Positions 4,548 through 22,500 of a DNA stretch of 28,829 nucleotides are shown here, piece after piece. The notes under the pieces are model-generated. The model ran no database searches and had not been told where the DNA came from. It saw nothing but the letters and a program-made list of their open reading frames with translations. Source of the DNA: a virus; IMG/VR virus record IMGVR_UViG_3300042903_000081, positions 1 to 28,829 of that record; one strand, given 5' to 3'. The position numbers and the translations under genes are program-made. Within the stretch, counting starts at the first letter, position 1, and the number at the start of each line of letters is the position of its first letter.

Positions 4548-4576
4548 TTGACAATTTTGCGCACTGGTGATATTTT
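4548..4576 (+). promoter_or_regulatory. Sigma70-type promoter for recombination operon
   Basis: A perfect TTGACA (4548-4553) is followed by a 17-base spacer and TATTTT (4571-4576, four of six consensus bases). It points to the annealase gene 32 bases downstream and lies in the short divergent gap between the ribbon-helix-helix gene and the annealase gene. Confidence 0.7.
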
Positions 4577-4584
4577 TCGCGCAC
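4554..4584. promoter_or_regulatory. Candidate paired operator over promoter
   Basis: ATTTTGCGCAC (4554-4564) and TTTTCGCGCAC (4574-4584) form an imperfect direct repeat with a 20-base period, about two DNA turns. One copy lies in the promoter spacer and the other just downstream of the -10 element, so protein bound there would block transcription. The neighbouring ribbon-helix-helix protein is the obvious candidate binder; that link is inference. Confidence 0.45.
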
Positions 4585-4590
4585 CAAACC

Positions 4591-4600
4591 AGAGGGAGGA
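4591..4600 (+). promoter_or_regulatory. Strong Shine-Dalgarno fixing annealase start
   Basis: AGAGGGAGGA ends 8 bases before the ATG at 4609 and selects this start over an in-frame upstream codon that overlaps the promoter -10 region. Confidence 0.75.
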
Positions 4601-4608
4601 TAAGCGCA

Positions 4609-6009
4609 ATGAAAGCAGACGTTGTGGCAACAACCCCGCGTGGCGAAGCTCGCGCCCAGCTCATTCAGCTCGCCAAAACCATGTGGTGGCCTGAGGCGCC
4701 CGAAAACATCGTTGGCCTAGCGCTCGACTACTGCGCTGTGCAGGGCATCGACATCATGCTGAGGCCCGTGCACGTCGTGAAAATCGCTGGCCAATGGCAA
4801 ATCATCCCTGGCATCGCGCTGCATCGCATCCGAGCGCAACGAAGCGGCGAAATGGTCGGCGTGCGCTTCGAATTCCCGCCTGAGGAAAGCTATGAAATTA
4901 AGCAATACAAGTTCTGGCGGCGCGATGGGCGCGGAAACCGCTACGCGGACACTCTCGAAATTCGCGTCCCGCCGTGGGTTCGCTGTCTCGTGCTTCGCTG
5001 GCAGCACGGAGAGCCGAGAGCCTACGAAGCTATCGAATACTGGGACGAATGCGTAAACCTCGATGCCACCGGAGCCATCTCCCCGATGTGGGCCCGTAGG
5101 CCACGCGGCCAACTGGCCAAAGTCGCCGAAGCCCAAGCCCTACGTCGGGCATTCCCCGAAGCCTGCCCGTCCGGTCCGACAATCGAGGAGATTGGCGACG
5201 AATCGAGCGACGAAGAGGCCCCCAAACTCGAAGCCACGCAGAAACGAGCCCCGAGAGGGGCCCTGGAGCGTCTCCGAATGGCCCAGGAAGCGAAAACTAC
5301 CCTCGGGGAAGGGTCTACCACTACCCAGGCCGAGAAGTCTTCCCAGAACGAAATCCTGAGCGCCACGGAGGCTGCCAAAAAGCAGCCCGAGCCGAATGCT
5401 CCCCCCGAAGAGTACTGGATTCACGCGGAGCATGTGTACGACGACGAGCTGCTTCGTGGCGTTCAGGAGCTAGAGCGCAAGGTTCACGACGCAACGGGGG
5501 AAAGTTTTCAGGCACTTCGCGAAGCACACAAAGTGAGCTTCGTTTCTGGCAATATGGACCTCACGATATACGTTTCGAAGCTCAAGGCCATGCTTTCCCA
5601 GGCTCAAGGCGAAGAAGCCGAGCCGAATGAGCCGGAAGTCGTGATTGAGCCGGAACCAGAGCCGGAGCCTGAGCCCGAACGCAAGGCAGCGCCCAAGAGC
5701 ACTCGGGGGCGGAAGAAGTTGGTTCAACAGGAACTTTTCAGTGAGCCAGAAAAAGCACCTGAACCAGAGCCTGAACAAGAAACTAGACAACAAGCTGAGT
5801 CAATTGAAGACAAAAACAAGATTTGCAATGACATTTTCAGGATTGAACGAGAGCTTTTGCGCACCCAGCCCATGATTGTGGCCCAGCTTAGGCGGCAGCA
5901 TCTTCCCAGCGGTTCGCTTGCGGAAGCAAGTCTCGTGGAGCTCATGGCGTACTGGGCGGTTCTCAACAAAGAAAAAGAAAGAATCGAAAAAGAAAGGGTT
6001 GGAAAGTGA
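4609..6009 (+). CDS. bet: Bet/Redbeta-type single-strand annealing protein with long acidic tail
   Basis: This is a 466-residue protein. Residues about 15-190 match the Bet (lambda Redbeta) family: an N-terminal helix with PENIVGLALDYCAVQGIDIM, a strand-rich core with IPGIALHRIRAQRSGEMVGV, PPWVRCLVLRW, a WDECVNL segment, and the signature KVAEAQALRRAFPE (171-184). The family anneals complementary single strands during phage recombination and replication, working with an exonuclease, here the next gene. It is much longer than lambda Bet (about 260 residues). Beyond about 200 come a disordered acidic segment, a helical block (about 281-340), a Glu-Pro repeat (about 347-360), and a second helical block at the C-terminus. 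QQELF at 373-377 fits the QxxLF pattern of sliding-clamp-binding peptides. The gene has a strong promoter and Shine-Dalgarno. Family confidence is high; the role of the tail is inference. Confidence 0.85.
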   Translation: MKADVVATTPRGEARAQLIQLAKTMWWPEAPENIVGLALDYCAVQGIDIMLRPVHVVKIAGQWQIIPGIALHRIRAQRSGEMVGVRFEFPPEESYEIKQYKFWRRDGRGNRYADTLEIRVPPWVRCLVLRWQHGEPRAYEAIEYWDECVNLDATGAISPMWARRPRGQLAKVAEAQALRRAFPEACPSGPTIEEIGDESSDEEAPKLEATQKRAPRGALERLRMAQEAKTTLGEGSTTTQAEKSSQNEILSATEAAKKQPEPNAPPEEYWIHAEHVYDDELLRGVQELERKVHDATGESFQALREAHKVSFVSGNMDLTIYVSKLKAMLSQAQGEEAEPNEPEVVIEPEPEPEPEPERKAAPKSTRGRKKLVQQELFSEPEKAPEPEPEQETRQQAESIEDKNKICNDIFRIERELLRTQPMIVAQLRRQHLPSGSLAEASLVELMAYWAVLNKEKERIEKERVGK

Positions 6010-6800
6010 TTGAGCAGCTAATCGAGAGCGCGCTTGCCAATGCAGTAGAGCCGAATTCTGCTCGCAGAATCTCGGCCTGGAATGCCGGCATGTGTGTTCG
6101 CCGTCTCTGGTACGGCGAGCACGGGGTCGAGCCTACAGACGCGGAAAGCTCGTTCGGGGTCATTCGCCGGTTCCTTGGCGAACAGATTGAACAACTACTT
6201 GTCACGGCTCTTGACATCACCGGTTTAAGCCTCCCTGGGGAGCAACTAGAGGCGCCAAGTCCGTTTCCCTCTGGACGGCGCATCTACACGGATTTGAATC
6301 TCGTGTTGGATGAACGAATCTTGGGCTCTGCCACGTGCCCCAAGCGCATGCGCATCTGGGACGCTCCCCAGGTGAGTGTTGTACTACACACTGCACATAA
6401 TGATTTTGTCAAGAGTACAATTCCAATTGTTGTTCCGGCTGATGTAAAAAGCATTGGGCAGTTTCAATTCGAGCGCCTTCTGGCTGGGGATTTTTCCGAC
6501 TATGAGGACCAGCTCGAAGTGTACATGCGGGCAAAGGGCGTCCCGTTGGCCATTGTGATTGGCTGCCATCGCGACTCTAGTAAGATAATTTTCGGGATTG
6601 TCCCGAGCACGGAGGCGCGGTGGGAAAAAATCAAGGGGAACATCTCGGTGGCCCTGGCTGATGAATTGCCGGAGCGCCCGTACGAGAAGAAGGAGAATTA
6701 CCCATGCGGCTATTGTCCTTATCGTTCGCTTTGTTGGTCGCCGTCGCATCCATCGGCGTCGGAGCTTATCGCGCAAGCGCAGGGAGCGTTGACTGCATAG
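6006..6800 (+). CDS. Cas4-like (RecB-family) Fe-S exonuclease
   Basis: This is a 264-residue protein. The GTG start overlaps the annealase TGA (GTGA), so translation is probably coupled. The layout matches Cas4/RecB-like nucleases: one N-terminal Cys in MCVRRLWYG (C30) and three near the C-terminus in PCGYCPYRSLC (C234, C237, C243), which would hold a 4Fe-4S cluster. The PD-(D/E)XK site is visible as an Asp-bearing strand (D96 in YTDLNL or D102), D146-V-K148 in PADVKS, and the QxxxY motif (Q169, Y173). Such enzymes resect DNA ends to leave single strands. Next to a Bet protein it takes the place of lambda Exo and would supply single-stranded DNA for annealing. The end of the gene is overprinted by the next reading frame. 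The family call is strong; polarity of resection is not visible. Confidence 0.8.
   Translation: MIEQLIESALANAVEPNSARRISAWNAGMCVRRLWYGEHGVEPTDAESSFGVIRRFLGEQIEQLLVTALDITGLSLPGEQLEAPSPFPSGRRIYTDLNLVLDERILGSATCPKRMRIWDAPQVSVVLHTAHNDFVKSTIPIVVPADVKSIGQFQFERLLAGDFSDYEDQLEVYMRAKGVPLAIVIGCHRDSSKIIFGIVPSTEARWEKIKGNISVALADELPERPYEKKENYPCGYCPYRSLCWSPSHPSASELIAQAQGALTA
6690..6695 (+). promoter_or_regulatory. Shine-Dalgarno for overlapping small exported gene
   Basis: AAGGAG lies 8 bases before the ATG at 6704, inside the nuclease coding sequence. It supports a real internal start in another frame. Confidence 0.65.
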
Positions 6801-7225: not shown

Positions 7226-10200
7226 CTACGGCGTAGGCGTACGTGTCCTGGTTGGCGTAACTGTTGGCGTTGGTGTCGGAGTATAGGGCGTGGGCGTTCC
7301 GAACACCACGTGTGGCGGGCGATAGTTAGGCACCACCTGCGAGCCTGGAGAGAGTCCGAGGCCAATCATGCGGGCGTTGTAGGTCTCTAAGAGGCAGAGT
7401 TCTTTCGGTTGGCATCCCGTCTGTCCACCAGCGCACATCCTGAACTCTCCTGGCAAGAAAGTCGTGAACAGGTTCGAGGTATTCGTTGCGTCAGTGGACA
7501 TCGTGCTTTGCGCATGGATTGGCCGCGAATCGAAAATTCTCCTGGCCGTGACCCACGTCGCAATGTTTTCCGAATGCGAGCCCTTGAGCTCAACAGGAGA
7601 CAGGAATCCGAGTGCAAGAGTTAGCTTGCTACCCGTTGCGAGGCTCGCCATGAGCTTCACGCAGCAGTCCAGATTATCTTGATAGCGCTTGCCACAGGCT
7701 TGCCCGTAGAAGTCGCACCAGAAGTCGCTTTCTTCGTGGAACGGCTGACACACGATGCCGCCGGTGGGCGTAGGAAGTGGTGTCGGCGTTTCGGTTGGCG
7801 TTTCGGTTATGGTGGGGGTCTGGGTTATCGTTGGAGTTTCGGTTGGTGTTCCGAGTCCTGGGCCTTCCGGCGGGAATTCGATTACTATTTCTTCGGTGGG
7901 CGTCGGAGTAGGAGTGGCAGTGGGCGTCAGAATTTCTTCTTCGCTCATCAAGAAGAACGCTTCCGGCAGGGGCGTGGGTGTCGGCGTCGGAATGAACCAA
8001 TAGACAGCTAGGCTTTCACTGCCACGATAATTGACGTTTGCAGAAAACGGCGCGCTCCCCATGAAGCTCACTCGATAATGGAGCTTGATGCCGCCTTGAG
8101 TGAGAATCGAATCCGCAGGAAGAAGGGCATTGATTCCCCAGACAGGAGTCAGATGGCCAGGGCTCACGTCCGGAGGAATGTACCTGGAATAGTTGGTTTG
8201 GTCTGACGTCGGGTACATGTTGTTCCACTGGTTTCGCCAGTACGGGCGGTTGAATGCAACTACGTCTGGTCCCCGCGTGCCGTTGATTTCTAGGGCGAGC
8301 TCCTCGATTCCCCAATCACCTGTAAGCGGCGGGTTAGCTCCCCAGTAATCACCGACCCCCTGGAATCCTGCCGTGACTCCACACACAATGGACCCTGGCG
8401 GCGGTGGATTGACCCATGTGGCACAATTCAAGTCTGGTTCGATAGTAATTTCCTTAGTGATGTAATTTGCCGTGCAGCACTCATAAGTGGCATAATAACA
8501 GATTGGTTTTGGCACCTCGCATGTGCTTTCAGTTTGCCCGCCGGTCGGACAAGAAGGCGAGGTTCCCGACACCGTCGGGCCTAAGCCAGTGCCGCTCACG
8601 CTCATTCTCATCTTATTTCCAGCAAATGTGATGTAGGACAATTGAGCATTTGGCGGACAAGTAATGCCTGCGCTTGTAGGCGTAGGACTTGCTGTCGGGG
8701 TTCGAGTTGGCGTGCTAGTCGGACCTGGCGCAGTGGGTGTAACAGTTAGCGTCGGGCTCAAGGTCGGAGTACCTTCATCGACCAAGAAGAAATCGATGGG
8801 CGTGGGCGAGCCGACTGTCGGCGTCAAAGTCGGTGTCCGAGTCGGAGTCTGAGTGCGGGTGTTGGTCGGGGTATGAGTAGGTCCGGTTGGCGTCTCCGTT
8901 GGAGTTGGAGTAATCGTCGGGGTATCTTCGTCGGTCAAGAAGAACGGCTCACTCGCTGGCGTATGAGTTCCGACAGGAGTCGGAGTGCGAGTTGGCGTGA
9001 TGGTAGGAGTATGGGTTGGGCCCGTTGGCGTTGGAGTTCGGGTGTGAGTTGGCGTCTGGGTTAGCGCGCTAGTTGGCGTTGGGCTGTCCTCGCTTACCAA
9101 GAAGAAGTCCGCTGGGCGCGCTGTTGGGGTCGGAGTTCCAGTTGGGGTATGCGTTGGCAAAGTGCCCGTCGGACTCAGTGTAGGCGAGGGCGTTGGTGTA
9201 GGAGTTTCTTCGCTGACAAGGAAGAAAAAGTCGGCTGGGGGCGCTGTTGGACCTGGAGTTCCGGTTGAAGTCGGAGTCCTGGTTGGCGTATGCGTTGGCA
9301 AAGTTCCGGTCGGAGTTGGCGTGGGCGAAAGCGTCGGTGCAGGAGTTTCTTCGCTCACAAGGAAAAAGTCAGCTGGAGGCGCCGTTGGGGTCGGGATTCC
9401 GGTTGAAGTCGGAGTCCTCGTTGGCGTATGCGTTGGCAAAGTGCCTGTTGGCGTCGGCGTAGGCGAGAGAGTTGGTGTAGGAGTTTCTTCGCTGACAAGG
9501 AAAAAGTCGGCTGGCGGGACTGTTGGGGTTGGCGTCGGTGTCTGAGTTGCAACAGAAGCAGAAGGGGTGGGAGTAGTAGTGGCGGTTCTGCTTGGGGTAC
9601 TAGTTGCGGTGCGCGTGGGAGTATGAGTCAGCGTTGAAGTTTGCGCGAAAGTCGGCGTTTCGGACGCAGTGGGCGTAGCGGTTGCTTCGTCCAGCAGGAA
9701 AAATTCAGCTACCACCGGAGTTGCCGTCGGGGTTTGAGTCGGCTGTGCTGTCGAAGTTGCGGTTCCCGTCCGCGTTGGCGTCGCAGTCGGAGTAGTCGTT
9801 CGAGTCGGAGTTCCCGTCGGAGTACTTGTCAAGCTAGGCGTCGGGCTTTCTTCGCTCAGAAGGAAGAATTCTGCGGGCGGAGCAGTCGGTGTGGGAGTAT
9901 CGGTCGGAGAGGGACTAAAGGTAGGCGTCCGCGTTGGGGTCGGCGTTGGCGTGACGGTGGGCGTAGGTGTGTCGGTTGGAAGCTGCTCTCGAAAGGCAAG
10001 CGCAACAATGTAGGAACCCCCCTGCGAGAAATTGTCACTCGCCTTGACGAATGCACAATCCCCTTGATTGGCATTCACGACCCCGCTCGAAGAGCAAATG
10101 GGCTGACTGGACGATACAGTACACGACGTTGCTGCCGAACAGGAGGAGAATGGGATTGGCGTCCTAGTGGCGCAGGGCTGGACACAGACGCGCAGCTCGA

Positions 10201-11497
10201 CCGGCGTCGGTGGCGGGGTCTCTCGCTGCACACGAAGGTTGAAAAACTGGCCCTTCACACCCACTGGTGCAAGCGGTTGGTATACCGATTGAGCCGATGG
10301 TATGAACCCGCCAGGGAGGCTCCACTCCGGCTTAGCGCCCGACCCAGTGAACGAACCAATTGTCCACGGCTGCACTTTTCCTGGAGTGGGAAGCACGTCG
10401 ATAGTTGCCCCGACAATCCCGTAGCTTGTGCTGGCATTGCCCTGTAAGTACAGCCGGTTGTTCGTGCCAACGATGCAACCAGGCAGAGAAGAACTTTTGA
10501 AGACATTTTGGTTCATCTGGGGCGACCCGCTTAGACAGCTAGTGCCACCAGACGGGTCTGTGAGGTCCAAATTCTTCGTGACGCTGAACGGGTTCGTGAT
10601 GATGAGGGATGTCGGTTCTCCGTGCAACCGGAATGCCTCCAGCGACAGAGGGATGGAGTAAAACACTGCTCCCCGAGTTATGACTGAAGAGCTTGAAGGA
10701 AGGCCAGCGAAAGTTCCGGCATCGGCCCCGCCAGACGGAACATTCATTGGTCCGAAGCTCGATGGGTTCGGTCGGTTGTTTTGTCCACGGAACGCAAGGA
10801 ATGGCAGCGGGTAGACATCGGGGCTTAAAGTGTCGCTCCCCAATTTCGTCATCCAGACTGCCGCGTTACACTCAACGCTCTGGGAGAGGCCAACGAAATC
10901 AATACGCAAATTGAATACACTAGCGTAATTATTCGCCAGCGTGGGGAAATCAATTCCTTTCTCCGCGCGACAATAGCCTGTCGAGTCGAGAACGCACTTC
11001 AGGTCCGTAAACGCCTGGTTCTTGACGACTGTGACAGTTGCCCCCGCCGCCGCTGGATTACAAACGACCTCGAAGCCCCGAACTCTGATTGCTGGCAGAG
11101 CGATACCGTGGCTCCAGTAACTTAGGTAGTCACAGCCATCGATGCCCTCATTGGTGAAGCATCTACGAGTAACGCCAGAATCAGCCCGAGTTTGGAGCCA
11201 CATTACCGCCGGAAATTCACCCGACGGAATTGGCGGAAGAGTTGGGGTCGGAGTGTTGCTTGGCGTGCTTGTGACTGTGGGCGTGGGAGTAATCGTCGGC
11301 GTCGCCGTAATCGTTGGCGAGAGCGTCGGCGTGGGCGTAAGCTCATCGACGAGAAAGAAATCCCCCGCAAGCGGAGTTGGGCTCGGCGTGGGCGTTGCAG
11401 TTTGGGCCGAAGCAACATGAGCGCTCAGCAGAAATACGAGCGCACTAAGCAGACAGCATGGAGCGAGCCGGTGGCCGCCATAGCGCATGACACACAA
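7226..11497 (-). CDS. Giant exported Pro-Thr-stalk protein with FFLxxE repeats
   Basis: This is a 1423-residue protein. The TTG at 11497 has AAGGG six bases upstream; an ATG three codons later (11488) lacks such a site. Residues 1-31 are a signal peptide ending A-S-A. Three Cys-containing, probably beta-rich domains (about 92-505, 943-1165 and 1246-1399) are joined by long Thr-Pro repeats. Each stalk is punctuated by an aromatic-acidic motif such as [14 protein letters not shown] count ten copies (nucleotides near 11350, 9860, 9695, 9498, 9360, 9220, 9098, 8935, 8785 and 7948), with variants [16 protein letters not shown] and AFFLMSEE. Thr-Pro stalks usually hold surface domains away from the cell and may be glycosylated. 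It is the last gene of the late operon, after the holin-like genes. It looks like an exported adhesin, receptor mimic or exclusion factor; the function is unknown. Confidence 0.8.
9205..9545. repeat. Tandem 138-141-bp coding repeats in Pro-Thr stalk
   Basis: The sequence beginning TTTCTTCGCT recurs at 9205, 9346 and 9484, giving units of 141 and 138 bases that encode 46-47 residues, each with one FFLVSEE motif and one Pro-Thr stretch. More diverged units flank it at about 9081, 8920, 9690 and 9850. One unit has an extra Phe codon (DFFFLVSEE), as expected from in-frame slippage. These repeats should be prone to copy-number change and to assembly error. Confidence 0.75.
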
Positions 11498-11503
11498 GCA
11501 TTG

Positions 11504-11508
11504 CCCTT
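11504..11508 (-). promoter_or_regulatory. Shine-Dalgarno supporting a TTG start
   Basis: AAGGG on the minus strand lies six bases before the TTG at 11497. The first in-frame ATG (11488) has no purine-rich sequence at the right distance. Confidence 0.5.
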
Positions 11509-11520
11509 AACAGCGTCGAG

Positions 11521-12339
11521 TTATTCGACGGTGAGGCGGACACCGGTAGCGAACATCGTACCCTGGTAATCGTTGGTGCAGAATGGGTCATATGACACGA
11601 ACTCAAAAATCGCGTCAGCGCCTTTTAGGGCATTGATTAGGTCTGCCCGCTGCTGAGCAGTGAGGTCAGTATCGACTCGACATTCGCCAGTTAGCTCAAT
11701 CTTGGCGGGGTTGAAAAGCGCATTGTTCAGACAAAATAGATTGCCCTGCCCGAACGGGTTTCCGCCGCTCGCGTTAAGGTCCACAAGAGTGCCACTGTCC
11801 GCATGGTCCTTCAGTTTGAAAGTGATATTATAAACGTCGAGAACGCTCGCGACCGTATACACTCCGTTAATCATTGGGATTTTTCCGGATTGGATAGGCG
11901 CAGAAAATCTATCGGCATCCGTATTTTGGTAGTTAAAATCATTCGTGACAGAAAATACGGCAGGGTAATGATGCTGCACAACGTAATTGGCAGCCTGTAC
12001 ACAGAGTTTTCCGCCACTGGGACCCCCAGGCACTCTGTACATTTGAACCCAGACTTCTTTGACCTTGGTCCACCCAGTATACTTGTACTGGGCTTCGAAT
12101 CCACGGAGCCCAGCATTGACGAACGGCATCTCAATGCCCTTGAATCGGTAGTCGGTCAACAGCGGGGGAGTGCCGCTCTGCGTAAGGCCCGTAACACCAA
12201 AAACCCGCTCAGCGAATTGGCCCCATTCGACGTTTTGGCGGAGAAGCGGCCTTAGGGCGGAGCCTGGGATGTAAATGTCGGCTGCCAGAGCTTGCATTCC
12301 GAAAAGCAGGACAAGAAGGACCGGAAGGACTTTACGCAT
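11521..12339 (-). CDS. Exported beta-rich protein
   Basis: This 272-residue protein starts with a clear signal peptide (MRKVLPVLLVLLFGMQALA, cleavage likely after A19), and GGAGG lies ten bases before the ATG. The mature part looks beta-rich with four cysteines (in GKLCVQ, NLFCLNN, GECRVD and PFCTND). The segment GIEMPFVNAGLRGFEAQYKY resembles [18 protein letters not shown] in the first domain of the adjacent giant Pro-Thr protein, hinting at a shared fold. It lacks Pro-Thr repeats itself. It lies between two Pro-Thr-bearing exported proteins with gaps of 20-25 bases, so the three probably act together outside the cytoplasm. No family is recognised. Confidence 0.7.
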   Translation of the reverse strand: MRKVLPVLLVLLFGMQALAADIYIPGSALRPLLRQNVEWGQFAERVFGVTGLTQSGTPPLLTDYRFKGIEMPFVNAGLRGFEAQYKYTGWTKVKEVWVQMYRVPGGPSGGKLCVQAANYVVQHHYPAVFSVTNDFNYQNTDADRFSAPIQSGKIPMINGVYTVASVLDVYNITFKLKDHADSGTLVDLNASGGNPFGQGNLFCLNNALFNPAKIELTGECRVDTDLTAQQRADLINALKGADAIFEFVSYDPFCTNDYQGTMFATGVRLTVE

Positions 12340-12359
12340 GGCTTCGAAACCTCCTTAGT

Positions 12360-13514
12360 TCAATTGCCACATACCATGTTTTTCAGTTGGGTTGCAAGAG
12401 TGCAGGCGTCAGGACCGCCAGGCGTCGGCGTGTTCGTTGGAGTGCGGGTCTGAGTCGGTGTGGCTGTTGGCGTAGGTGTCCCCTGTGGGGCAGGAGTAAA
12501 CGTTCGCGTCGGAGTGGGCGTGAACGTTCTCGTTGGGGTCCATGTAAGCGTTGGTGTGGGCGAACTTGGCACCGAACCAACCGCGATTCGCCACACGCCC
12601 ATTGTGCGGCGAGCGCCGTACAAGTAAGGCGGAATGTATTCCAGGTAGTCGGAACTTGGGGCGCTTAGAATCTCAAGCACTTGGCCCGTCCGACTTGCGC
12701 GCACGAGAAAATTTTGCGTGCCCGCTGCCGTGCTGTTGGGCGACAAGTATACATCCGTGCCAACTACGGCGATGCCACGGGGAGCAATTTGCGCATTGGC
12801 AAGATTCTGCCCGACCGTGAGCGACCCGTTCGTGTTGCCCCACGGAGTCCCAGCGAACACATCGACCCGACTCGTTGTGTTATCGATGACCCATGCCACC
12901 GAACACGTGTGGTCGGTCGTGTAAATCCGGTTCGGGCTTTCTTTGTCCACGTCCCACAAGCCCCACATTTTGAAACTCGAAAACGGCCCAGGCTCGCAGC
13001 CGAAATCGTTCGGCTGGTTCGAGAATGGGACTGGACTCACGGAATTAGTCTGCAAATTGACGAGGTGGAGCCGATAATTCAGCGGCGATGCTTGGTAGAA
13101 CGCCACGTTGCCAAGAAGCACCTGATTGGCTCCGTAATCGGTACCCGAGAAGGACATCTCGCCCGCTCCTGGGCTGATGGTCTTAATCAGGGCGCCAGTA
13201 TTCAAATCGAGGACATCCGTTTGGCTTCCCTTGAAACCAAGAATCACGCCCTGCATCACCAAGAGGCTCGAATAGACCGCAGGGATTTGGGATTGCTGGA
13301 GAGCGATGCTTCCGTCAGCGGCAATCCGATAAAGCCGAATCACATTGCCGCTTGGCGTCTGCACTCTTTCTGAAACGTACAGATTGCCGGCGTACGAACT
13401 CACCCCCAGAATGTACGTAGGCGCTGGGAACACGCTCGTGCCGCCCATAATCCACTCGACCTGGGCAGCCGACACGCGCGCAAAGAGGAGAAAGAGAATC
13501 GCAAGCCAGGCCAT
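12360..13514 (-). CDS. Exported beta-propeller-like protein with Pro-Thr tail
   Basis: This is a 384-residue protein. The hydrophobic start (MAWLAILFLLFARVSAAQ) is a signal peptide, although it lacks the usual basic N-region. An in-frame stop lies just upstream, so no longer start is possible. Residues about 20-310 contain repeated strand motifs of the type IAPRGIAVVGTDVYLSPN and YILGVSSYAGNLYVSERV, and LDLNTGALIKTI, typical of NHL/SMP-30/WD-like beta-propellers. A Thr-Pro stalk (about 313-365) leads to a short C-terminal segment with two cysteines (ACTLATQLKNMVCGN). The tail resembles the giant Pro-Thr protein and may place the propeller on the surface. It starts 3 bases after the small membrane-protein gene, so it belongs to the late operon. 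Confidence 0.7.
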   Translation of the reverse strand: MAWLAILFLLFARVSAAQVEWIMGGTSVFPAPTYILGVSSYAGNLYVSERVQTPSGNVIRLYRIAADGSIALQQSQIPAVYSSLLVMQGVILGFKGSQTDVLDLNTGALIKTISPGAGEMSFSGTDYGANQVLLGNVAFYQASPLNYRLHLVNLQTNSVSPVPFSNQPNDFGCEPGPFSSFKMWGLWDVDKESPNRIYTTDHTCSVAWVIDNTTSRVDVFAGTPWGNTNGSLTVGQNLANAQIAPRGIAVVGTDVYLSPNSTAAGTQNFLVRASRTGQVLEILSAPSSDYLEYIPPYLYGARRTMGVWRIAVGSVPSSPTPTLTWTPTRTFTPTPTRTFTPAPQGTPTPTATPTQTRTPTNTPTPGGPDACTLATQLKNMVCGN

Positions 13515-13516
13515 GC

Positions 13517-13702
13517 TTACTTATCCGTGTTGATTTTCAGGAATGCCCCAAGAATGAGCACGATAATGGCCGCAATGAACCGTGCCCATTCTTCTGGTGT
13601 TTCTGGCCACTTGTCCGGCACAATGCCCGCAGAAATTGCTGCGCCAAGGAACGTCGTAATTGGGCCTCGGTAGACGTTTCGAGGGTCGAACGAGATGTTC
13701 AT
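13517..13702 (-). CDS. Small membrane protein, possible second holin or antiholin
   Basis: This is a 61-residue protein whose ATG overlaps the stop of the upstream holin-like gene (ATGA). One clear membrane segment lies at the C-terminus (FIAAIIVLILGAFL) and a weaker one near the N-terminus (TTFLGAAISAGIV). Small one- or two-span proteins directly beside a holin are often antiholins or co-holins. There is no sequence family I can name. Confidence 0.55.
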   Translation of the reverse strand: MNISFDPRNVYRGPITTFLGAAISAGIVPDKWPETPEEWARFIAAIIVLILGAFLKINTDK

Positions 13703-14010
13703 GTCAAGTACCTCGTAAGTTTCTTTTTCAGGATTTTCGCAAGCAAGTCAAGTACTTCGATTCCAGCCCAGGCCCCAAGGCCAGCCAGTGAGAATGCCAC
13801 GTTCGGGTACATGTAGGCAGCCTCGCGAACCATCATGCCTACGATGACCGAGGCCAACATGCTTGTCAAAATTTGCCCGATTGCGGACACTAACGGTCGT
13901 GGTTGCACCGACCACTCGACGAATGCCCTTGCTGCGCCGCCAAGGATGCCGATGGCAATCAAGGCAGCGATAAACAGAAGAAGGTCTGTCAACGACTGTT
14001 TCTCGTCCAT
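13699..14010 (-). CDS. Holin-like membrane protein
   Basis: This is a 103-residue protein. I chose the ATG at 14010 because it follows the upstream stop directly (TGACATG), with AGGTG close upstream; an alternative 14040 start would overlap the previous gene by 29 bases. Three hydrophobic segments are visible (LTDLLLFIAALIAIGILGG, ILTSMLASVIVGMMV and VAFSLAGLGAWAGIEVLDLL), followed by a Lys-rich tail (LAKILKKKLTRY). Size, three spans and a basic C-terminus fit phage holins of the LydA/holin-superfamily-III kind, which form the holes that trigger lysis. No endolysin lies beside it, which is unusual. It could instead be another late membrane protein. Confidence 0.6.
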   Translation of the reverse strand: MDEKQSLTDLLLFIAALIAIGILGGAARAFVEWSVQPRPLVSAIGQILTSMLASVIVGMMVREAAYMYPNVAFSLAGLGAWAGIEVLDLLAKILKKKLTRYLT

Positions 14011-14011
14011 G

Positions 14012-15820
14012 TCACCTAACTGACTCAAGAAGATTCGCAAGAGCCTGCATTTCCTCCGGTGTTAGCGACACAGCAGAGGCTCTCCCGCCAGGAAACGGAG
14101 GCAACGGAGTCGGTTTTTGCGGGATACTTGGGACAGGGACAGGAATCGGCTCCAAGGACCCAGGAGCCGAAGTGGGAGATGAGGAAGACGGCATGATGAC
14201 TGGCATCGTAACTCCTGGCTGCATTTCCATTCCAAAGCCCACCGGCGCTTGAGCTTCACCGGTTTCGCTGGGAGTCACAGAACCTACAAGGGCCGCAAAG
14301 CCCACTCCCCACGGGAGCTGGCGGCGAAAATCTGGCGTACCTCGAATGCGGCGGAATATCCTTCCTGCCTCGGTTGGGTTGAACGAGAGACCGGTCACTG
14401 GCGCCTTTCCGATTTTCGGGTGCATCCAGGTGTGAAGATACGCTCTTTCGAGCGCGTCCTGAGAGAATGCCGGTGCGCCGCGATAGATGGCACGTATGAG
14501 TTCCTGGGTGAACTTGGGGTCGTATCTCGACGTCCCTTCAAGTTGCTTGGCAAGGGCCGGCGACATACGGATGTTCGCTTGCGTCACTGCGGGGTTCCAG
14601 TAGCCCGCTTCTGTAAGAGCCAGCTCTGGCTTGCTTTCTACTCCAGTTAGTCGCCTAAGCGTGTGCCACGCGAACTGCTTGGCTCTCGCGCCCGCCCATC
14701 GCTCAAGCGCCTCGGGTTCTGCTGAGAGGGCAGACTCGATTACGTTCGAAAGGCTGTCTCTTACATTTCGGGCAACCGATTGCGTAAGATGCACTTGAGT
14801 CGGGCTTCGCGCTTCTGCAAGCCTGCCCGCTCCCTGCGTGTAATGAATGATGGCAGAAAGAAGCTCGTCAGCTTCTTCAATCGGAAGTTTTACGATTTTA
14901 CCCCCTTCTGCATCGATGACCACTTTGTTGGGCATCAAATGCGAGAAGTTGGCTTCGATTTTGTCCCCGAACTTTCGGAAGACATCGCTCACATCGACCA
15001 TGAGGGGCGCATCTTCGGCAAGGCCCAACTTTTGCTTAAGAAGCTGAAAAGCCCGCTGGCGCTCGGCATTCATGGCTTCGTTGAGCGTTTGGCTTCCGTA
15101 GTAGAGCGGCCCAAGCGTTTCTCTTACGAGACTTGGGGACCTTTTAAGAGTTTGGGCAGATGCTCCAGTCGTTGCCTCTGGGAACCACTTGCGAATGATG
15201 TCGCGAAGCCGTTCGGTATCTGCCTTCGGCTGCTTTAACCGCGTCATGAGACCGGCCATGCCGGCGGAAAATGCTTGCTCGACAGCTCCTCGCCCAATCT
15301 CGGCCCCGACGTCCTTTCCTCTTCCAGCGGCAACCATTGCCCGCATTGCGACGGGCAGGATGTTGAGAGCAAGCGCAATTGCTCGGCCCTGCCACCCTGG
15401 TAGGCTGGAGGTAATCAGTTTCTTGCGGATAACATCGACAATCGCTTGCCCGCTAAGTTGGCCCATTTCTTCCGCTGTGAATGAGCCAATGATGTTGTCC
15501 AGGATTTGTTCAAGCGATACTCCAGGCTCCCGTTGGCTCTCTGGGTGAACTCCGAGCATCCGCTCGGCTTCCGTGCGCGCAGATGGTACAGCGGTAGTCG
15601 GTCTCGGCGCTGCAAGCCCGAATTCAGCCTGCGGGCCGATTGGCGCACCGCGTTCGAGTGGCGATGCTCCCGCTTGGGCCAGCTCTTCCTGGATAAGCCG
15701 CTCAATCAGCTGGCTTTGTAGCCTTGGGTCGAGCTGGGCGAAGGTCCGATACAGCTCGGGGTCGGACTGGAGTTGCTGGACAACCTTTTCAGCTAAGGAT
15801 TCTGCATCTACCGGCGGCAT
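14012..15820 (-). CDS. Putative internal virion / ejection protein
   Basis: This is a 602-residue protein. Its ATG overlaps the upstream stop (TAATG), with AAGGAG eight bases before. It is largely helical, with acidic Gln-rich helices at the N-terminus (SLAEKVVQQLQSDPELYRTF), a hydrophobic stretch (GRAIALALNILPVAMRAMVA, about residue 145-165), many basic helices, another apolar segment (WGVGFAALVGS) near residue 505, and a Pro-rich C-terminus. This composition and its position in a run of long helical late genes fit proteins packaged inside podovirus heads and ejected with the DNA. I see no lysozyme or transglycosylase motif. The assignment rests on context, not family recognition. Confidence 0.5.
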   Translation of the reverse strand: MPPVDAESLAEKVVQQLQSDPELYRTFAQLDPRLQSQLIERLIQEELAQAGASPLERGAPIGPQAEFGLAAPRPTTAVPSARTEAERMLGVHPESQREPGVSLEQILDNIIGSFTAEEMGQLSGQAIVDVIRKKLITSSLPGWQGRAIALALNILPVAMRAMVAAGRGKDVGAEIGRGAVEQAFSAGMAGLMTRLKQPKADTERLRDIIRKWFPEATTGASAQTLKRSPSLVRETLGPLYYGSQTLNEAMNAERQRAFQLLKQKLGLAEDAPLMVDVSDVFRKFGDKIEANFSHLMPNKVVIDAEGGKIVKLPIEEADELLSAIIHYTQGAGRLAEARSPTQVHLTQSVARNVRDSLSNVIESALSAEPEALERWAGARAKQFAWHTLRRLTGVESKPELALTEAGYWNPAVTQANIRMSPALAKQLEGTSRYDPKFTQELIRAIYRGAPAFSQDALERAYLHTWMHPKIGKAPVTGLSFNPTEAGRIFRRIRGTPDFRRQLPWGVGFAALVGSVTPSETGEAQAPVGFGMEMQPGVTMPVIMPSSSSPTSAPGSLEPIPVPVPSIPQKPTPLPPFPGGRASAVSLTPEEMQALANLLESVR

Positions 15821-17346
15821 TATTGGGCTCCTTGCCGCATCTGAAGCTCACGAATGATGTTCAGGATTCTTTGCTTTTGCTCGTTGGTAATGTTCGGCGT
15901 CGGCGCGCCAGGGGCTGTTGGCCCTTGCGGCGCACCCTGCGACTCGGGCCGCGCTTGCTGCTGCTGAACTTGCGGCTGAATTTGAACCTGTGGCTGTGCT
16001 TGCGGCAAAGCTGGCGCAACGGGTACTGCCTGGCCCTGAGACAGCGCTTCTCGCTGCCCTGCAATTGTTGGCTCCTGAATCGTCATTTGGTTGATGATGC
16101 CGAGATTTCTTGCAAGCTGAGATTTGCCTTCTGGAGTTGCCACAGCGGCAGGCGGCGGAAGCCACGCAGCCCCTGGATAGCGCGATAGCGGCACATTCTC
16201 GGTTCCAAGAACGTTTTGGAGCGTCTTACGAGCAAGATGGTCCATGTTCATGAGGTTGACCCAGGCGCTTGCGTAATCGACCTCCCCAGGCTCGACCATT
16301 TTTTGGAGGCCCTCGAACGCCCCAATCGCGCGCATGCCGATTTCGTCATACACGTTCCGGCCTAGCCCGATAATTTCAGACTTGGCATTCTTGAGAAGCT
16401 GGAGCACAGGGTCCTGAGTTACGGCTGCCAGGGCCTTGAGCTTTGCCCTTTGAATCGCCCGCTCAGCAGCACCTTTAGCGGTCATGGGCACAAGCCAACC
16501 GTTCATCTCGGCTGCAGCAATGGCGCGCGCCACTTGCGTAATCATGTTCAAAGCCGAAGTGGCCGCTTTGACTTTCTTTAGGTCATTGGCCCCGAGAAGC
16601 CGATACCCGTGCTCGAACATTTCTCGGACGGTCGCTGTTTGCAGTAACTCTGGTGGCGGTGGATTCCCAAGAACATCGACCCAACCGCGTCCAGACTGCA
16701 CAAGCTCGGCTGCGGCTTTCTCAAGGAATCTCTCTCTCTGGCTCGCCTGGCCTTGGCTCTTTCCCTCGCGCTGCCGTTGCATGGCCTTCGCTTCGGACTC
16801 AAGCATGAGGGCCTCGGGAATTTTAAGCCACGCATGTTCGGGCCTGAACGGCTCGCCTTTCTGCATCGCCTCTTGCATCGCAAGCGACGTGGCAATGTTG
16901 CCAAGTGTTCCAGACGGAAGTCCAAGCGTCTGTTGAGCTTGGGGCCCAATCGGCCTTGGTTCCCCACCGAACACTGGTGGCGGAACTTGCACAATCCCAG
17001 TCCGGCCCCTCAGATACTGGGGCAGCAAGAGCTGAACGCTCGCAGGCCCGAAGGCGCGAGCGAGATTGAGAGCATCCTGTGGCGAGAGTCTCTCGTTCTG
17101 AGTCATTGCCAGAAGCTCAAGGCCCTTGGCAAGCTCTTGGATTTGTTTTTCTTGCTCTCGCTTTTCCAGTTTTCTTTGGAAAATCTCTGCGTACTGCTTC
17201 TGAGCAGCCGGATTTCCGAGGCCGGCGCTCGTGGCGAGCATGACTTCGCCAAGACTTCTTAGCGTGTCCTTGGAAAGCGCCTTCGAGGCTGCTTTTGGCA
17301 GCGCCTCGATTGCAGTTGAGAAGATTTGGCCAACTTTCTCAAGCAT
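15820..17346 (-). CDS. Putative internal virion protein with Gln/Pro-rich C-terminus
   Basis: This is a 508-residue protein. The N-terminal half is alpha-helical with many charged residues (AQKQYAEIFQRKLEKREQEK). The middle contains Ala-rich helices (SALNMITQVARAIAAAEMNG), and the last about 60 residues are a Gln/Pro-rich disordered tail (PQVQIQPQVQQQQARPE). There is no signal peptide. It is coupled to the next gene by a TAATG overlap and lies 6 bases after the previous stop. Like its neighbours it resembles ejection or scaffold-type virion proteins by composition and location; no catalytic motif is visible. Confidence 0.5.
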   Translation of the reverse strand: MLEKVGQIFSTAIEALPKAASKALSKDTLRSLGEVMLATSAGLGNPAAQKQYAEIFQRKLEKREQEKQIQELAKGLELLAMTQNERLSPQDALNLARAFGPASVQLLLPQYLRGRTGIVQVPPPVFGGEPRPIGPQAQQTLGLPSGTLGNIATSLAMQEAMQKGEPFRPEHAWLKIPEALMLESEAKAMQRQREGKSQGQASQRERFLEKAAAELVQSGRGWVDVLGNPPPPELLQTATVREMFEHGYRLLGANDLKKVKAATSALNMITQVARAIAAAEMNGWLVPMTAKGAAERAIQRAKLKALAAVTQDPVLQLLKNAKSEIIGLGRNVYDEIGMRAIGAFEGLQKMVEPGEVDYASAWVNLMNMDHLARKTLQNVLGTENVPLSRYPGAAWLPPPAAVATPEGKSQLARNLGIINQMTIQEPTIAGQREALSQGQAVPVAPALPQAQPQVQIQPQVQQQQARPESQGAPQGPTAPGAPTPNITNEQKQRILNIIRELQMRQGAQ

Positions 17347-17352
17347 AGTAGG

Positions 17353-17775
17353 TTAGTACGGCGGACGGAGCATTGGAGTGTAGAATCCAGGTCCGTAGCC
17401 ATAATCTGGGCTTATTCCGACGGGCGGGCCAGGCAAGGGTTCTTGTGGCCGATTCATCATTTGGCTGAGAATGTACAATGCCAGGTACAGAGACTTTGCG
17501 GGGTCCGAAGTCGCAATGGGCTGAGAGCTCGTTGGAAGTCCCATTTTGATTGACCCTCTCTCCGACTCTCGCACGGACGGGAACAGTGGCGGAGTCTGTG
17601 GCCTCAGTAATTGACCCGTTTGAGTCATGATTTGGCCGAGTTGCTGAAGAGCACTGGCGTCCCCTCCGGAGCCTTTACTCCCTCCGCCTCCTCCCCCGAA
17701 AAGGCCGCCCAAAAAGTCCGCCGCTCCGCCTACAACGTCACCGAAGAAATCGCCAATGTCACTGAACAAGCCCAT
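17353..17775 (-). CDS. Small Gly-rich amphipathic virion-type protein
   Basis: This 140-residue protein has AGGAGA six bases before its ATG. The N-terminus is a Gly/Phe-rich amphipathic stretch (MGLFSDIGDFFGDVVGGAAD) followed by a run of glycines, a pattern common in short phage internal or DNA-transfer proteins that insert into membranes. The middle holds LQQLGQIMTQTGQLLRP, and the C-terminus is Pro/Tyr-rich. It probably belongs to the ejection apparatus encoded by its neighbours. The role is inferred. Confidence 0.5.
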   Translation of the reverse strand: MGLFSDIGDFFGDVVGGAADFLGGLFGGGGGGSKGSGGDASALQQLGQIMTQTGQLLRPQTPPLFPSVRESERGSIKMGLPTSSQPIATSDPAKSLYLALYILSQMMNRPQEPLPGPPVGISPDYGYGPGFYTPMLRPPY

Positions 17776-17784
17776 TTTTGTCTC

Positions 17785-18531
17785 CTAAAGCGCCAATGCG
17801 CTCAGAATCGATCCCCCGATTTGGAGCCCCGTGGAGAGCCAGTCTTCCCAATTCTTCGTTTCGTGAGACGTGGCTCTCGTCTGGGTACCAATGAGCTGAG
17901 GCAGCATCTGCAACGGGCCACGCTGCGTCTCAAGCTGGGTGGCCCAAGCATTCATGGCCTGGTCGAACTTCGCTTTGGCCTGTTGGAGCGCCACTTCGCG
18001 CGGCATTCCCGCAAGAGCTAGCGCGCTAGTCAACTGTCCCGCCTGCGAAGCTGCAAGGCTCGGGAGCATCTGAGCCGCACGGAAGCGGTTCTGAATGTCG
18101 AACTGCATGAGCGGGAGTTGAATTTCCGCAAGGCCCCGAGAGATTGCGTCCATCTGCGCGCCACTTGCTCCACGCCCCTGAAGAGCTTGCTGAGCGCGCA
18201 AAAATGGCAGCGTTTGCGTTTGAAACTGCTGCATTGCCGCCTGAGTCAGCGGACCCGCGCCAGGTGCCCCGCTTAGCATTGGGGTGAGCGCTTGGATGGC
18301 GGACTGAAAGATTGCTGGGTCCCTAAGAATTCCAAGCGCCTGCCCGAGAATGTCGGTCTCTTGTGCCGTCAATCCAGGGACATCCAAGAGGGGCGTTTGC
18401 TGCGCAAGCTGGGTAAGGCTCGGAAGCTCAGTTTGCGCTTCCCGCAGTTGCCCCACGCCTCCCAGGAGAACACCCTTCAGTTCGTCTGGAATTAACGGCT
18501 GAGTGGTCGAGATGTTGATGAGCTTGGCCAT
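17785..18531 (-). CDS. Helical internal virion / DNA-transfer-like protein
   Basis: This is a 248-residue protein, Gln/Ala/Leu-rich and almost wholly helical (AQETDILGQALGILRDPAIF, AAMQQFQTQTLPFLRAQQAL). A motif-like stretch GRGASGAQMDAISRGLAEIQ precedes RFRAAQMLPSLAASQAG, and it ends in a hydrophobic helix GLQIGGSILSALAL. Proteins with an 'RGxSGxQ...GLA' helical layout are, from general recollection, frequent next to ejection proteins in podovirus-like contigs. There is no signal peptide at the N-terminus. The gene starts 4 bases after the fibre-like gene's tandem TGA-TAG stops. Confidence 0.5.
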   Translation of the reverse strand: MAKLINISTTQPLIPDELKGVLLGGVGQLREAQTELPSLTQLAQQTPLLDVPGLTAQETDILGQALGILRDPAIFQSAIQALTPMLSGAPGAGPLTQAAMQQFQTQTLPFLRAQQALQGRGASGAQMDAISRGLAEIQLPLMQFDIQNRFRAAQMLPSLAASQAGQLTSALALAGMPREVALQQAKAKFDQAMNAWATQLETQRGPLQMLPQLIGTQTRATSHETKNWEDWLSTGLQIGGSILSALAL

Positions 18532-18535
18532 ACTA

Positions 18536-19264
18536 TCAGACTAGTTGATAATCGGCTGGGATGAGCTGAACAACCAGATGGTGCTTGTCAAGGTCGATTC
18601 CGGCATCCCCGAAGACTTTGAGTTCCACGTTCACGTTCCCCGTTGCTCTACCAAGAACGGCGTAGAACGTGTTGTGCAAAAAGTACGGCTGCGAACGTGG
18701 ATTGGGCCAGGGGTTGTCCCATACGGTTAGCTGGCTTACGGGCCCGCCAAGGGAGAATTCAAGAAAATAAGAAAGGCGGTTGAACGTGCTTGCGGCAGGG
18801 GGAATGGCGCTCAGTATCCCACTTGCCACAACGACATTTTCAGAAAATCCCGACGACGGAAGCGGAATTGCAACAGACGTGATGCTTTGCATCGTTCCGT
18901 CGGTCGTCGGCCCAGTATTGACAACCTTGTGCCGCACAATTGGAAGGGGGAATTGCGAGGGCAGTGAGCCAATTTTGCTGTCCGTGTACGCCTTTGCGGC
19001 GTTGAGCGCGCTTGTGGAGGCATTGGAAGCAAAGTGCTGGGCCAGTTTTTTGGTGCAGATACCCATGTCGTCTACTGGGTCTCCCCGCACCGTCACAAGC
19101 CCACTGGCTGGGTCGATTTCGAATGGATGCTCGAAGTTCTCCGAGGCAGCGCCAGAAAAGCCAAAAATCCTAAGAATCGATTGCGTAAGCCCTCGGATTC
19201 TCATCGCCCCGAGGGAGCGAGATTCTGTATCTGGCGGAGCTTGAGGATTCAGGGTGACAAGCAT
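18536..19264 (-). CDS. Fibre-like virion protein
   Basis: This is a 242-residue protein. The central segment has the pattern of phage fibre hinge regions: ICTKKLAQHFASNASTSALN followed by AAKAYTDSKI (residues about 69-98), recalling the 'ATKKYVD...A..YTD' motif of tail-fibre and collar proteins that form a trimeric coiled coil. It is preceded by a short beta segment (PFEIDPASGLVTVRGDP) and followed by a beta-rich C-terminal domain of about 130 residues (NRLSYFLEFSLGG, VNVELKVFGD), probably a jelly roll. It may be a short fibre, head fibre or adaptor exposed on the virion. Gene order after the small protein upstream and before ejection proteins is consistent. Confidence 0.55.
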   Translation of the reverse strand: MLVTLNPQAPPDTESRSLGAMRIRGLTQSILRIFGFSGAASENFEHPFEIDPASGLVTVRGDPVDDMGICTKKLAQHFASNASTSALNAAKAYTDSKIGSLPSQFPLPIVRHKVVNTGPTTDGTMQSITSVAIPLPSSGFSENVVVASGILSAIPPAASTFNRLSYFLEFSLGGPVSQLTVWDNPWPNPRSQPYFLHNTFYAVLGRATGNVNVELKVFGDAGIDLDKHHLVVQLIPADYQLV

Positions 19265-19265
19265 C

Positions 19266-19568
19266 TTAGGCTATGAAGCTAGGCATCGACCACACAGCTT
19301 GTGGCTGATTCTGCAACCGGATTCTAGTTGGATTCAGTCCCACAACGAGCACTTGACTGGGGTTTAGTGCTACACCATCGGCGAAAATTTGGCAACAAAG
19401 TCCGTCTGGGGAATTCGTGATTCGGGCCGGTGCTTCCCAAATGGAGTCGCTTACATCGACCGCCACGAGCTTCCATTGCATCGGAGACAGCACCAGTCGT
19501 GAGCCAGCGAAAAAGACTTGATTCGGAAAGTTGGGCGACGAGTAATGCTCCTGAAGGAATCGAATCAT
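19266..19568 (-). CDS. Small hypothetical virion-region protein
   Basis: This is a 100-residue protein. The ATG at 19568 overlaps the upstream stop (ATGA) and has GGGAGAG close before it; a TTG four codons earlier is less likely. The sequence looks beta-rich (QVFFAGSRLVLSPMQWKLVA, GVALNPSQVLVVGLNPTRIR) with a CC pair in the middle. It may be a small virion decoration or fibre-associated protein given its place before the fibre-like gene. No family is recognised. Confidence 0.5.
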   Translation of the reverse strand: MIRFLQEHYSSPNFPNQVFFAGSRLVLSPMQWKLVAVDVSDSIWEAPARITNSPDGLCCQIFADGVALNPSQVLVVGLNPTRIRLQNQPQAVWSMPSFIA

Positions 19569-22500
19569 GGTCTCTCCCAAACGATTAGAGGCAGATAATC
19601 GGGGGGATTGAGAACATTAACTCTTCTCAAGACCTCTCTGTCCACGAACAAGTAGGCCGGCTCGGCCCTTCTTACGAATCCGAATTGCTTCAAATACGCA
19701 GACAGGAGCGGTATAATTGTATTGTGGTATAATCTACCAATCGTCAGTGCATTCACTGCTTTTTCAAAATTTATGCCTTCGACTGCCCTTAGTACGCTAT
19801 TATGCTCCCATTCCCCTAATGGTTCGATGCCGTAAGTGAGCAGCGTTGGAACGTATTGTCCGTAGGTGGGAATCACGAGGTGTGGAACTGATTGAATTGT
19901 TTGTACTGTGAATGGCACCTCCCCCGCACGCACAAGTTTGGCAAGGTACTTGAGGTACGAGGAAATCGCTGCAGAAACGATTTCTGGTTCACGTTTCCCC
20001 CCAGCCATCCCACGGATTTCGGAGCTATCGAGGGCGCGAAGGAGCCTGCGATAACGAGAGCGAAACTGTAATCCAAGCGGTAACCCTTGCTCGATGGTCT
20101 GCAAACGGTCCCAGCCAATGGAACGTAGGTTATCGATTAACTCGGGAGTAAATTGCTCCTTGCTAAGTTCAATTAGAAAGTCCGCAGTAGCCTCCTTGGT
20201 TGTCAAATGCTCGTGGCGACGATAGGGGAGCTTTCTGAGTCTTGAGATTACCGCCTCTGGAGTCGTGTAGAGGTTATGCCAAAACGCCGACATCTCAAGC
20301 GGTGCAAGCCGCACTTGTGCGCTGTGATACTTGACCGCAATGGCCTCCGGTGTTGGTATCGCGATGTATCGAATGTCGCCCCTGTCGATGAGGTCCCTCA
20401 CTTCTTCATCTAAAGCAAAAATTGAATCGACGATTGCTTTTGGCCACTCAGTGATGATGGGCTTGATGGGGCGGAAGAATTCCTGCAAAAGCCGGTCATA
20501 CACTTTCCAGAGGGAAGTTGCGTACTCGTTCACTGCATCGAGCGCCTTGCCCCAATCTTGAAGTAACCTTGTCTCGGAAGGTCCGCTGCCTTCGATTACA
20601 GGTCCAGCAAAGTGGGGAGCCAATCGGGAGGAACGCTCGATGATGTGCAGGTGCATTGGATACACCCCAGCAGTCCCCATCTTGGACATCTCAGCCAGCA
20701 TCGACAGTTGGGGTTGCAACTGGACGAGGAGGTTGAATTTCTCTTTTTCCGAGAATCCAGATTTGCGCGCCAATTTCTCCGGAAGGCCCAGTATTTCGCC
20801 TGTGGCCAATTCGCTAAGAAACTCTTCGACTGGTATAAATAAGTTATACGCCTTCTCGAATTTCTCCTCCAGAAATTTTTGTTCAATTTCGTCAAAGACG
20901 GACCAATCTTGTTGTTCTGGCTTAGACCTGATTCGCTCTATTGACGCCCAATAATCAATTGCACCGCTCGCCCGAGTCGGGTGAGGAAAGTAGTAGCTCG
21001 TCGATTCCGTGCCCGATACGGCTGCGGTTAGATATTCATGGTGCAACAAGTCATTCCAAGACCGTGCACGGGACGGAAGCTCCAATGGGCTCAGCTTGGC
21101 AGCCAGCATTATCTGGCCAAGTGCCGTGCGGGCCATTTTCCTAAGACTCTCCTCGTCGTATTCCTCTGGCTCTCGGGGGCCCATCCTTCGCATCACCTTG
21201 ACGAGCGCATCTAATGCGTCGTTTAATTGATATGCTAATTCGCTAAATTGTGCGCTCGTAAACTCCTGGAACAACGTCTTTTGCGAAGGCGGTTTTCGCA
21301 AGAGTTCTTCAATGTACTTGCCGAACGGCAAAATGTCCGTCGCCTCAGCCGAGATTCTTCGGCCCCGCTGCCCAGAATGCTTGCTGAATAGTTTCTGAGC
21401 CAAGTCGCTTTGAATCTCATCGAAGACAAGCGCAAGTGGAAGATTGTCTCGATTATGCTCCCATTCTTGCAGTGCTTTTTTGAACGGCGACACAGAGATG
21501 TTGTTGATTGCGTATGATGCGTGAATAGCATCAACTGGGCCAGCGGCGCTCAATGCCGATTTTTCATAGTGGCCACGGGGCAGCTTCTCGTACATCTGGA
21601 ACGGAAGTCCGTGCAGCAGTTCGTATCTTCTTGCTTCTTTGCTTTTGGTAAGTATCTGAACGGCAACTGCCCTGCCGGTATCGGGGTAGATTCGCCCAGA
21701 CCGCACGTGTCGTTCCCATTCTGGGGCAACTAGGTAATACGTACCGTAGTTGTAGTCTGGATTGAACGCAGTCGCCACAACGGGTAGGTCCATCGTGTCT
21801 ACGATGGTGTCTACCCAATCGGCAATCGGGCGCGCCTCCAGCTCTTGTTTTCCAATTCGTCGTTGCCGCTCGGTTCTTGCAAGCCACCCTCCGGACTCGA
21901 CTTCGCCTGATAGCGGTCGAACATCACCGCCTTTGGCGCGAATGAACTTTTCTACTGCCTTTGCTCTTTCTTCGCTGAGGCCGGCAATCCCCCAATCCAG
22001 CGCGGCTTTCGTCAGCTCTTGCGGCGCCTTCACCCCAGACAAATCTTGCTGGCCAATGAGGAATTTGACTGCCTTATCAAGGTCAACGTCTTGTGACATC
22101 AGGGCCGCAACTTCATCGGGCTTAAGTTTGTTGAACCACTGGCGAAATGCCTGGCGGAATTTCTCACCAAGCCCAATTGAACGGTACTCGTGACCGAATC
22201 GGAATCCCAATCCATAAAATCGCTCATAGGGGAACATGCTCCCGCCAATGGCAGCGGCGAGAGCAGTCTTCTTGAGCGCTGCTTCGCTTAAGAAGAAAGC
22301 GTAGTTCAACGGGTCGAAAAGGGTTTTCTTCGCCTCTTCGGTTTCTCTTTCCTTTGCGGGGAGTTGTTCGACGGGCTTAAGCCCAGCCCTCTCGCGGAAT
22401 CTTCTCGCAAGGCCTATGGGCTCCGCGGGGATGGAAATTGTTTGGAATGGCTTCGGTTGCCCCAAGAGGGAAGCGGCCCCCTCCTGGAGGCCCTTCAGGC

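Follow-up and report, generated by a model that had tools for sequence, protein, structure and literature searches.

A putative docking motif repeated along the Pro-Thr linkers of a phage protein predicted to be secreted

Introduction

Secreted scaffolds are seldom expected of phages. The phage studied here devotes about 4.3 kb to one protein predicted to be exported, in which a short aromatic-acidic motif, FFLxxE, recurs along Pro-Thr (PT) linkers. The ORF lies in a virus record of 28,829 bases, the whole of which was analysed and is called the window below. The locus raises the question of what such a motif is for, and whether it is maintained by selection or came with the repeats around it. 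A preliminary description of this DNA had presented the ORF as a phage-encoded surface stalk of an architecture unfamiliar in phages, and had named a partner-binding site, a protease site and a self-association element as possible roles of the motif. Should the motif prove to bind a partner, the phage would provide an uncommon example of multivalent linear-motif docking outside the cytoplasm, and this would prompt the question of what phages do in the periplasm or outside the cell late in infection.

Results

Architecture of the 1423-aa ORF

A phage gene set was recognised in the window by PHROG and Pfam matches, and the four genes listed below bear out the phage origin. Neither PHROG nor Pfam gave a terminase, portal or capsid gene within the 28,829 bases. 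The recognised genes are:

2056-2445: Holliday-junction-resolvase-like protein (PHROG/Pfam match)
4567-6009: RecT (PHROG/Pfam match)
6006-6800: Cas4-like exonuclease (PHROG/Pfam match)
13699..14040, minus strand: holin-like protein (PHROG 785, 6384 and 2073), upstream of the 1423-aa ORF in the same gene run

The ORF under study is uninterrupted and starts with TTG, or alternatively with an ATG three codons on. At the N-terminus, the signal peptide leads into a PT linker that carries motif 1. Module 1 comes next and is joined to module 2 by a PT linker of 438 aa containing eight motifs; the PT linker between modules 2 and 3 holds motif 10, and a PT tail closes the protein:

7226..11497, minus strand: 1423-aa ORF with signal peptide, PT linkers, three Cys-rich modules and ten FFLxxE motifs
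11405..11497, minus strand: signal peptide, residues 1-31, predicted cleavage after ASA (by eye and hydropathy)
9983..11221, minus strand: module 1, residues 93-505, 14 Cys, dN/dS 0.11
8669..9982, minus strand: central PT-rich linker (residues 506-943), which carries motifs 2 to 9
7994..8668, minus strand: module 2, residues 944-1168, 8 Cys, dN/dS 0.25
7298..7759, minus strand: module 3, residues 1247-1400, 8 Cys, dN/dS 0.09

The modules could not be assigned to known families. Module 1 has no Pfam or PDB sequence match, modules 2 and 3 have no family match, and Pfam returned nothing for any of the three at E<=10. The only PHROG match of the whole protein is a low-complexity one, to phrog_15511 (unknown function). 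AlphaFold models built from a two-sequence alignment reached pLDDT values of 33 and 30, which are too low for a fold to be read from them.

Export and the two co-directional neighbours

The N-terminus has a hydrophobic core and an A-x-A-like cleavage site, as judged by eye and hydropathy. With a 19-residue window the hydrophobicity peaks at 2.09 at residue 11, and after residue 40 it never rises above 1.28. Two further ORFs with signal peptides lie immediately upstream on the same strand, separated from the 1423-aa ORF and from each other by 23 and 20 bases, and both are candidate partners of the 1423-aa protein:

11521..12339, minus strand: 272-aa protein with signal peptide and 4 Cys
12360..13514, minus strand: 384-aa protein with signal peptide, C-terminal PT tract and 4 Cys

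No relatives were found for the 272-aa protein or for the 384-aa protein, and no partner domains were recognised in either of them. Among PDB sequences, the 384-aa protein matched only the low-complexity PT part of a scaffoldin, at a non-significant E of 3.1. A beta-propeller was considered for this protein from repeats that look strand-rich by eye, and was not supported by sequence search or by a BLAST search for internal repeats.

The three signal-peptide ORFs contain 33, 4 and 4 Cys, compared with 3 Cys in all 4,989 aa of the ten late ORFs at 13699-28669, and the even number of Cys in each module of the large one (14, 8 and 8) fits with disulfide bonds outside the cytoplasm. By hydropathy, none of the three has a later clear membrane segment. 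Export of the 1423-aa protein via Sec is thus a well-supported prediction from its sequence, and the signal peptide and three Cys-bearing domains that the preliminary description had claimed are present, in support of a secreted modular protein. The surface stalk that it had also claimed is not supported, because no membrane helix, lipobox, LPXTG, SLH or other anchor or sorting signal was found in the protein, whose C-terminus reads ...RTRTPTP. Since no anchor was seen, the protein would probably be released with the virions at lysis.

Another reading of the ORF is a virion adhesin, that is a tail- or capsid-associated host-binding fibre whose apparent signal peptide serves envelope-linked assembly. 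This is unlikely. In its favour, the ORF comes after the late gene run, PT tracts occur also in phage proteins without signal peptides, and tail-associated tandem repeats exist as BACON domains in crAss-like phages, where they are a tandemly expanded phage-protein element thought to bind the host (PMC6949934). BACON is, however, a folded domain tied to tail proteins, whereas the element repeated in the window ORF is a linear one and the protein is secreted. The clear signal peptide speaks against a fibre, as do the Cys-rich modules next to nearly Cys-free late neighbours (3 Cys in 4,989 aa over the ten late ORFs at 13699-28669), and the 1423-aa protein has no match to trimeric-fibre, tail or other fibre families.

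The FFLxxE array

Ten copies of FFLxx[ED] are present, as had been described, and all of them lie in linkers:

11339..11359, minus strand: motif 1, FFLVDEL (residue 47), between the signal peptide and module 1
9848..9868, minus strand: motif 2, FFLLSEE (544), conserved in the sister contig
9683..9703, minus strand: motif 3, FFLLDEA (599), conserved in the sister contig
9485..9505, minus strand: motif 4, FFLVSEE (665), tandem copy
9347..9367, minus strand: motif 5, FFLVSEE (711), tandem copy
9206..9229, minus strand: motif 6, FFFLVSEE (757), tandem copy
9086..9106, minus strand: motif 7, FFLVSED (798), conserved in the sister contig
8924..8944, minus strand: motif 8, FFLTDED (852), conserved in the sister contig
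8771..8791, minus strand: motif 9, FFLVDEG (903), conserved in the sister contig
7937..7957, minus strand: motif 10, FFLMSEE (1181), between modules 2 and 3, conserved in the sister contig
9129..9529, minus strand: tandem array of a 138-bp unit, 2.9 copies, carrying the motifs at 665, 711 and 757

The consensus is FFL-[VLMT]-[SD]-E. Its E is invariant, but the second acidic residue of the motif as originally written is present in only 7 of the 10 copies. Thr/Pro repeats follow directly in nine copies and not, as had been stated, in each of them, since EIL intervenes in the tenth. The placing was called regular; the central array indeed has a spacing of 41-66 aa, but this is loose, and two copies lie outside it, one ahead of module 1 and one between modules 2 and 3.

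The array is not what the composition of the linkers would give. When the 604-aa linker fraction was shuffled 2000 times, the mean was 0.0015 motif copies and the maximum was 1. In the linkers 21 of the 24 Phe fall inside the motif, and no decayed copies were seen. A pure DNA repeat is excluded because the paralogous copies show synonymous variety, with CTC, CTT, CTG and TTG as Leu codons and GAA and GAG as Glu codons. Because three of the copies belong to a single 138-bp tandem repeat, two of the ten count as recent duplicates and about eight as independent. The tandem array itself is, judged from the sequence comparison, a recent expansion; the sister contig holds one motif at this place.

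The confinement of the motifs to linkers, where they flank every module, would suit a protease site at which an extracellular protease cuts after FFL and frees the modules. Processing of this kind is highly improbable, because three modules do not need eight copies in one linker, and no protease was recognised among the neighbour genes.

Selection on the motif

Among 2.9 million viral contigs the sole relative found is IMGVR_UViG_3300036768_001221 (L002/L029), the sister contig. Its ortholog is 88% identical over the aligned protein, with a truncated N-terminus from which the signal-peptide part is absent, and synonymous divergence between the two is about 0.4 per site. The sister contig has seven motifs, all at equivalent places, so that all 7 comparable copies are kept and the motif is not absent in the close relative. 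When the copies of this one pair of sequences were matched by their flanking sequence, the core codons F, F, L and E of the seven pairs were identical in 26 cases and synonymous in 2, with 0 of 28 nonsynonymous, versus 15 of 63 nonsynonymous changes in the neighbouring codons (Fisher p=0.004). The flanks and spacers differ between the contigs in residues and in length, and the cores are unchanged.

A neutral-drift simulation, in which all cores rarely or never stayed intact, is biased by the recognition of copies by their cores. The argument from the paralogous copies is likewise partly circular, as these were picked out by their core; the comparison of orthologs is not tied to core recognition in this manner. 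These results make it plausible that FFLxxE is a selected, putative repeated binding site.

Alternatively, the motif copies could lack function and have arisen incidentally through slippage and duplication of the low-complexity linker. The three copies within the 138-bp tandem array missing from the sister contig fit with this. An array without function is nevertheless extremely improbable, because no core residue has changed at this synonymous divergence while the neighbours vary, and decayed copies are lacking. The motif is therefore not explained as an accident of recent repeat expansion.

Rarity of the motif

The search in bacterial and viral proteins that the preliminary description had suggested was run, and within a PT context it returned nothing beyond the sister contig. 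As an exact pattern, which variant motifs would escape, the motif followed by [ST]PTP was found in no other contig of the 2.9 million viral ones. In about 85,000 species genomes the pattern matched three times, never inside a Pro-Thr-rich protein. Among the 61 PT-rich ORFs of the fetched loci, FFL recurs only in the window ORF and in that of the sister contig.

Three other proteins of the window, a late one nearby, the Cas4-like one and the 272-aa one, served as further queries for relatives, again with no result beyond the sister contig. Against deposited phages, tblastn gave nothing for the exported proteins or for two late proteins, and RecT alone matched. In 400 genomes of Chloroflexota, the guessed host group (the true host may differ), neither a homologue of the modules nor a genuine match to the motif was found. 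Among the sequences searched, the FFLxxE array is thus private to the lineage of the window and its sister.

Secreted PT/Cys proteins in other phages

The chassis that carries the motif is not unique. In IMGVR_UViG_3300036761_001542 (G002), which is 47.5 kb long and has matches to terminase, portal and DNA polymerase, several ORFs that lie between the terminase and portal genes or beyond them code for proteins with a signal peptide, TPT tracts and Cys. IMGVR_UViG_3300009169_000024 (G003; 62.9 kb) encodes one short secreted TPT/Cys protein, near recT-like and exonuclease genes on the opposite (convergent) strand. These proteins resemble the window ORF in being phage-encoded and in carrying TPT tracts and Cys-bearing segments behind a signal peptide; they lack FFLxxE and show no homology to it beyond PT composition. 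A signal-like pattern, AxAxTPTPT, passed a crude hydrophobicity filter in 7 of 80 loci among the matches listed, and some of these seven look spurious. At least two unrelated phages therefore have a secreted PT/Cys chassis, and what stands of the claimed unfamiliarity is the FFLxxE array, which was not found outside this lineage among the sequences searched. The literature search found no paper on PT-linked secreted phage proteins.

Two side observations concern G002. Its proteins at 30843 and 34550 share, by eye, a similar Cys-bearing module (L038, L048-L050). Its large terminase is given by two adjacent ORFs (L049, 8743-9936 and 9926-10630) that match consecutive parts of phrog_38; a frameshift, an intein remnant or a split gene are the options.

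The existence of comparable secreted PT/Cys proteins in unrelated phages bears on a further reading, in which the exported repeats of a phage-encoded protein block receptors or virion adhesins at the host surface, as a decoy or for superinfection exclusion. Such a protein would be functionally similar to CwpV of Clostridioides difficile, which bears repeats, sits on the cell surface and has an effect on infection by phages (PMC4737114). The likeness is a functional analogy only, since CwpV is host-encoded, anchored to the cell wall and built of domain-sized repeats. This role is distinctly unlikely: the window protein has no anchor, its probably late expression near the holin would be late for exclusion, and neither the species genomes nor Chloroflexota, the guessed host group, yielded a host copy of the motif in a PT context.

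Discussion

Proposed role of the FFLxxE array

The array looks like a low-affinity multivalent docking strip or sticker array because the motif is conserved while the spacers vary, in an extended linker of a secreted protein. We tentatively propose, at somewhat less than an even chance, that the 1423-aa ORF encodes a late-expressed, Sec-exported, disulfide-stabilised modular phage protein in which FFL-x-[S/D]-E is a putative repeated docking or sticker motif. Late expression is suggested by the shared strand and the position downstream of the holin-like gene, and the protein would be located in the periplasm or outside the cell. FFL-x-[S/D]-E would act as a short linear motif with a hydrophobic face, an acid cap and a proline fence, and the extended Pro-Thr linkers would serve as spacers. 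Many weak contacts from the repeated motif could then give a docking strip or a sticker array. The likeliest binding partners of the motif are the two exported neighbours encoded on the same strand, further copies of the protein itself or a component of the host envelope. Within the same proposal, the motif could instead be structural, for example packing against the modules.

The more specific version, a secreted scaffold with disordered linkers whose FFL-x-[S/D]-E array recruits co-exported proteins or cross-links envelope or virions, is possible but more doubtful. If it is true, the phage makes an extracellular sticker-and-spacer system with a previously undescribed linear motif. As the motif is short and the candidate partners are few, binding is directly testable by peptides.

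A related reading is self-association. Here FFLV would be an aggregation-prone beta sticker, gate-kept by Pro and Asp/Glu, and intermolecular pairing would give an extracellular gel or fibre, such as one surrounding infected cells or released virions. Four hydrophobic residues followed by acids with prolines on either side, the spacing by extended linkers and the multiple copies are all consistent with this, but position 4 admits Thr, and the constancy of FFL plus E is stricter than aggregation requires. Self-association is a minor but real possibility.

Comparison with known systems

Scaffoldins also have a signal peptide and folded modules on Thr-Pro-rich linkers, and work by multivalent docking. 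The window ORF is like cellulosomal scaffoldins in the signal peptide and in modules joined by such linkers. It differs in that scaffoldins repeat cohesin domains, whereas the window ORF repeats a 6-residue linear motif within the linker and is phage-encoded. A cellulosomal scaffoldin was rejected, as no module has a cohesin or dockerin match in Pfam at E<=10.

The FFAT motif, E-F-F-D-A-x-E, is a eukaryotic VAP ligand found in disordered regions (PMC7610837). It shares with FFLxxE the short form, the acid-F-F start and an E five residues past the first F. FFAT was also rejected, because position 4 is here Leu in all ten copies and not D or a phospho-acceptor, and position 5 is V, L, M or T and not Ala. 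A eukaryotic FFAT partner is not expected for an exported phage protein.

Other genes of the window and the sister contig

Several observations concern genes outside the exported group. The adjacent late proteins at 22620-25640 and 25640-28669, of about 1,000 aa each and free of Cys, are paralogs with 69% identity over the first 91 aa and 29% over the last approximately 800. A third late protein of similar size (19565-22618) has no homology to these two by BLAST, and none of the three has a family match. EVQSD/EIQSD segments may point to a resemblance to phage polyvalent proteins.

In the sister contig (L029), a MoxR-type AAA ATPase-like protein and a VWA-domain-like protein, both putative and judged by eye, are encoded close together at 15253-16407 and 13295-14497, which is unusual in a phage. 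At 11463-13285 of the same contig, neighbouring ORFs of about 290-340 aa are alike by eye, with 'CWGQI/CWGTV' and 'WRYVVT'-like segments. Similar ORFs are partly present at 3-467 of the window; they may belong to an expanded family.
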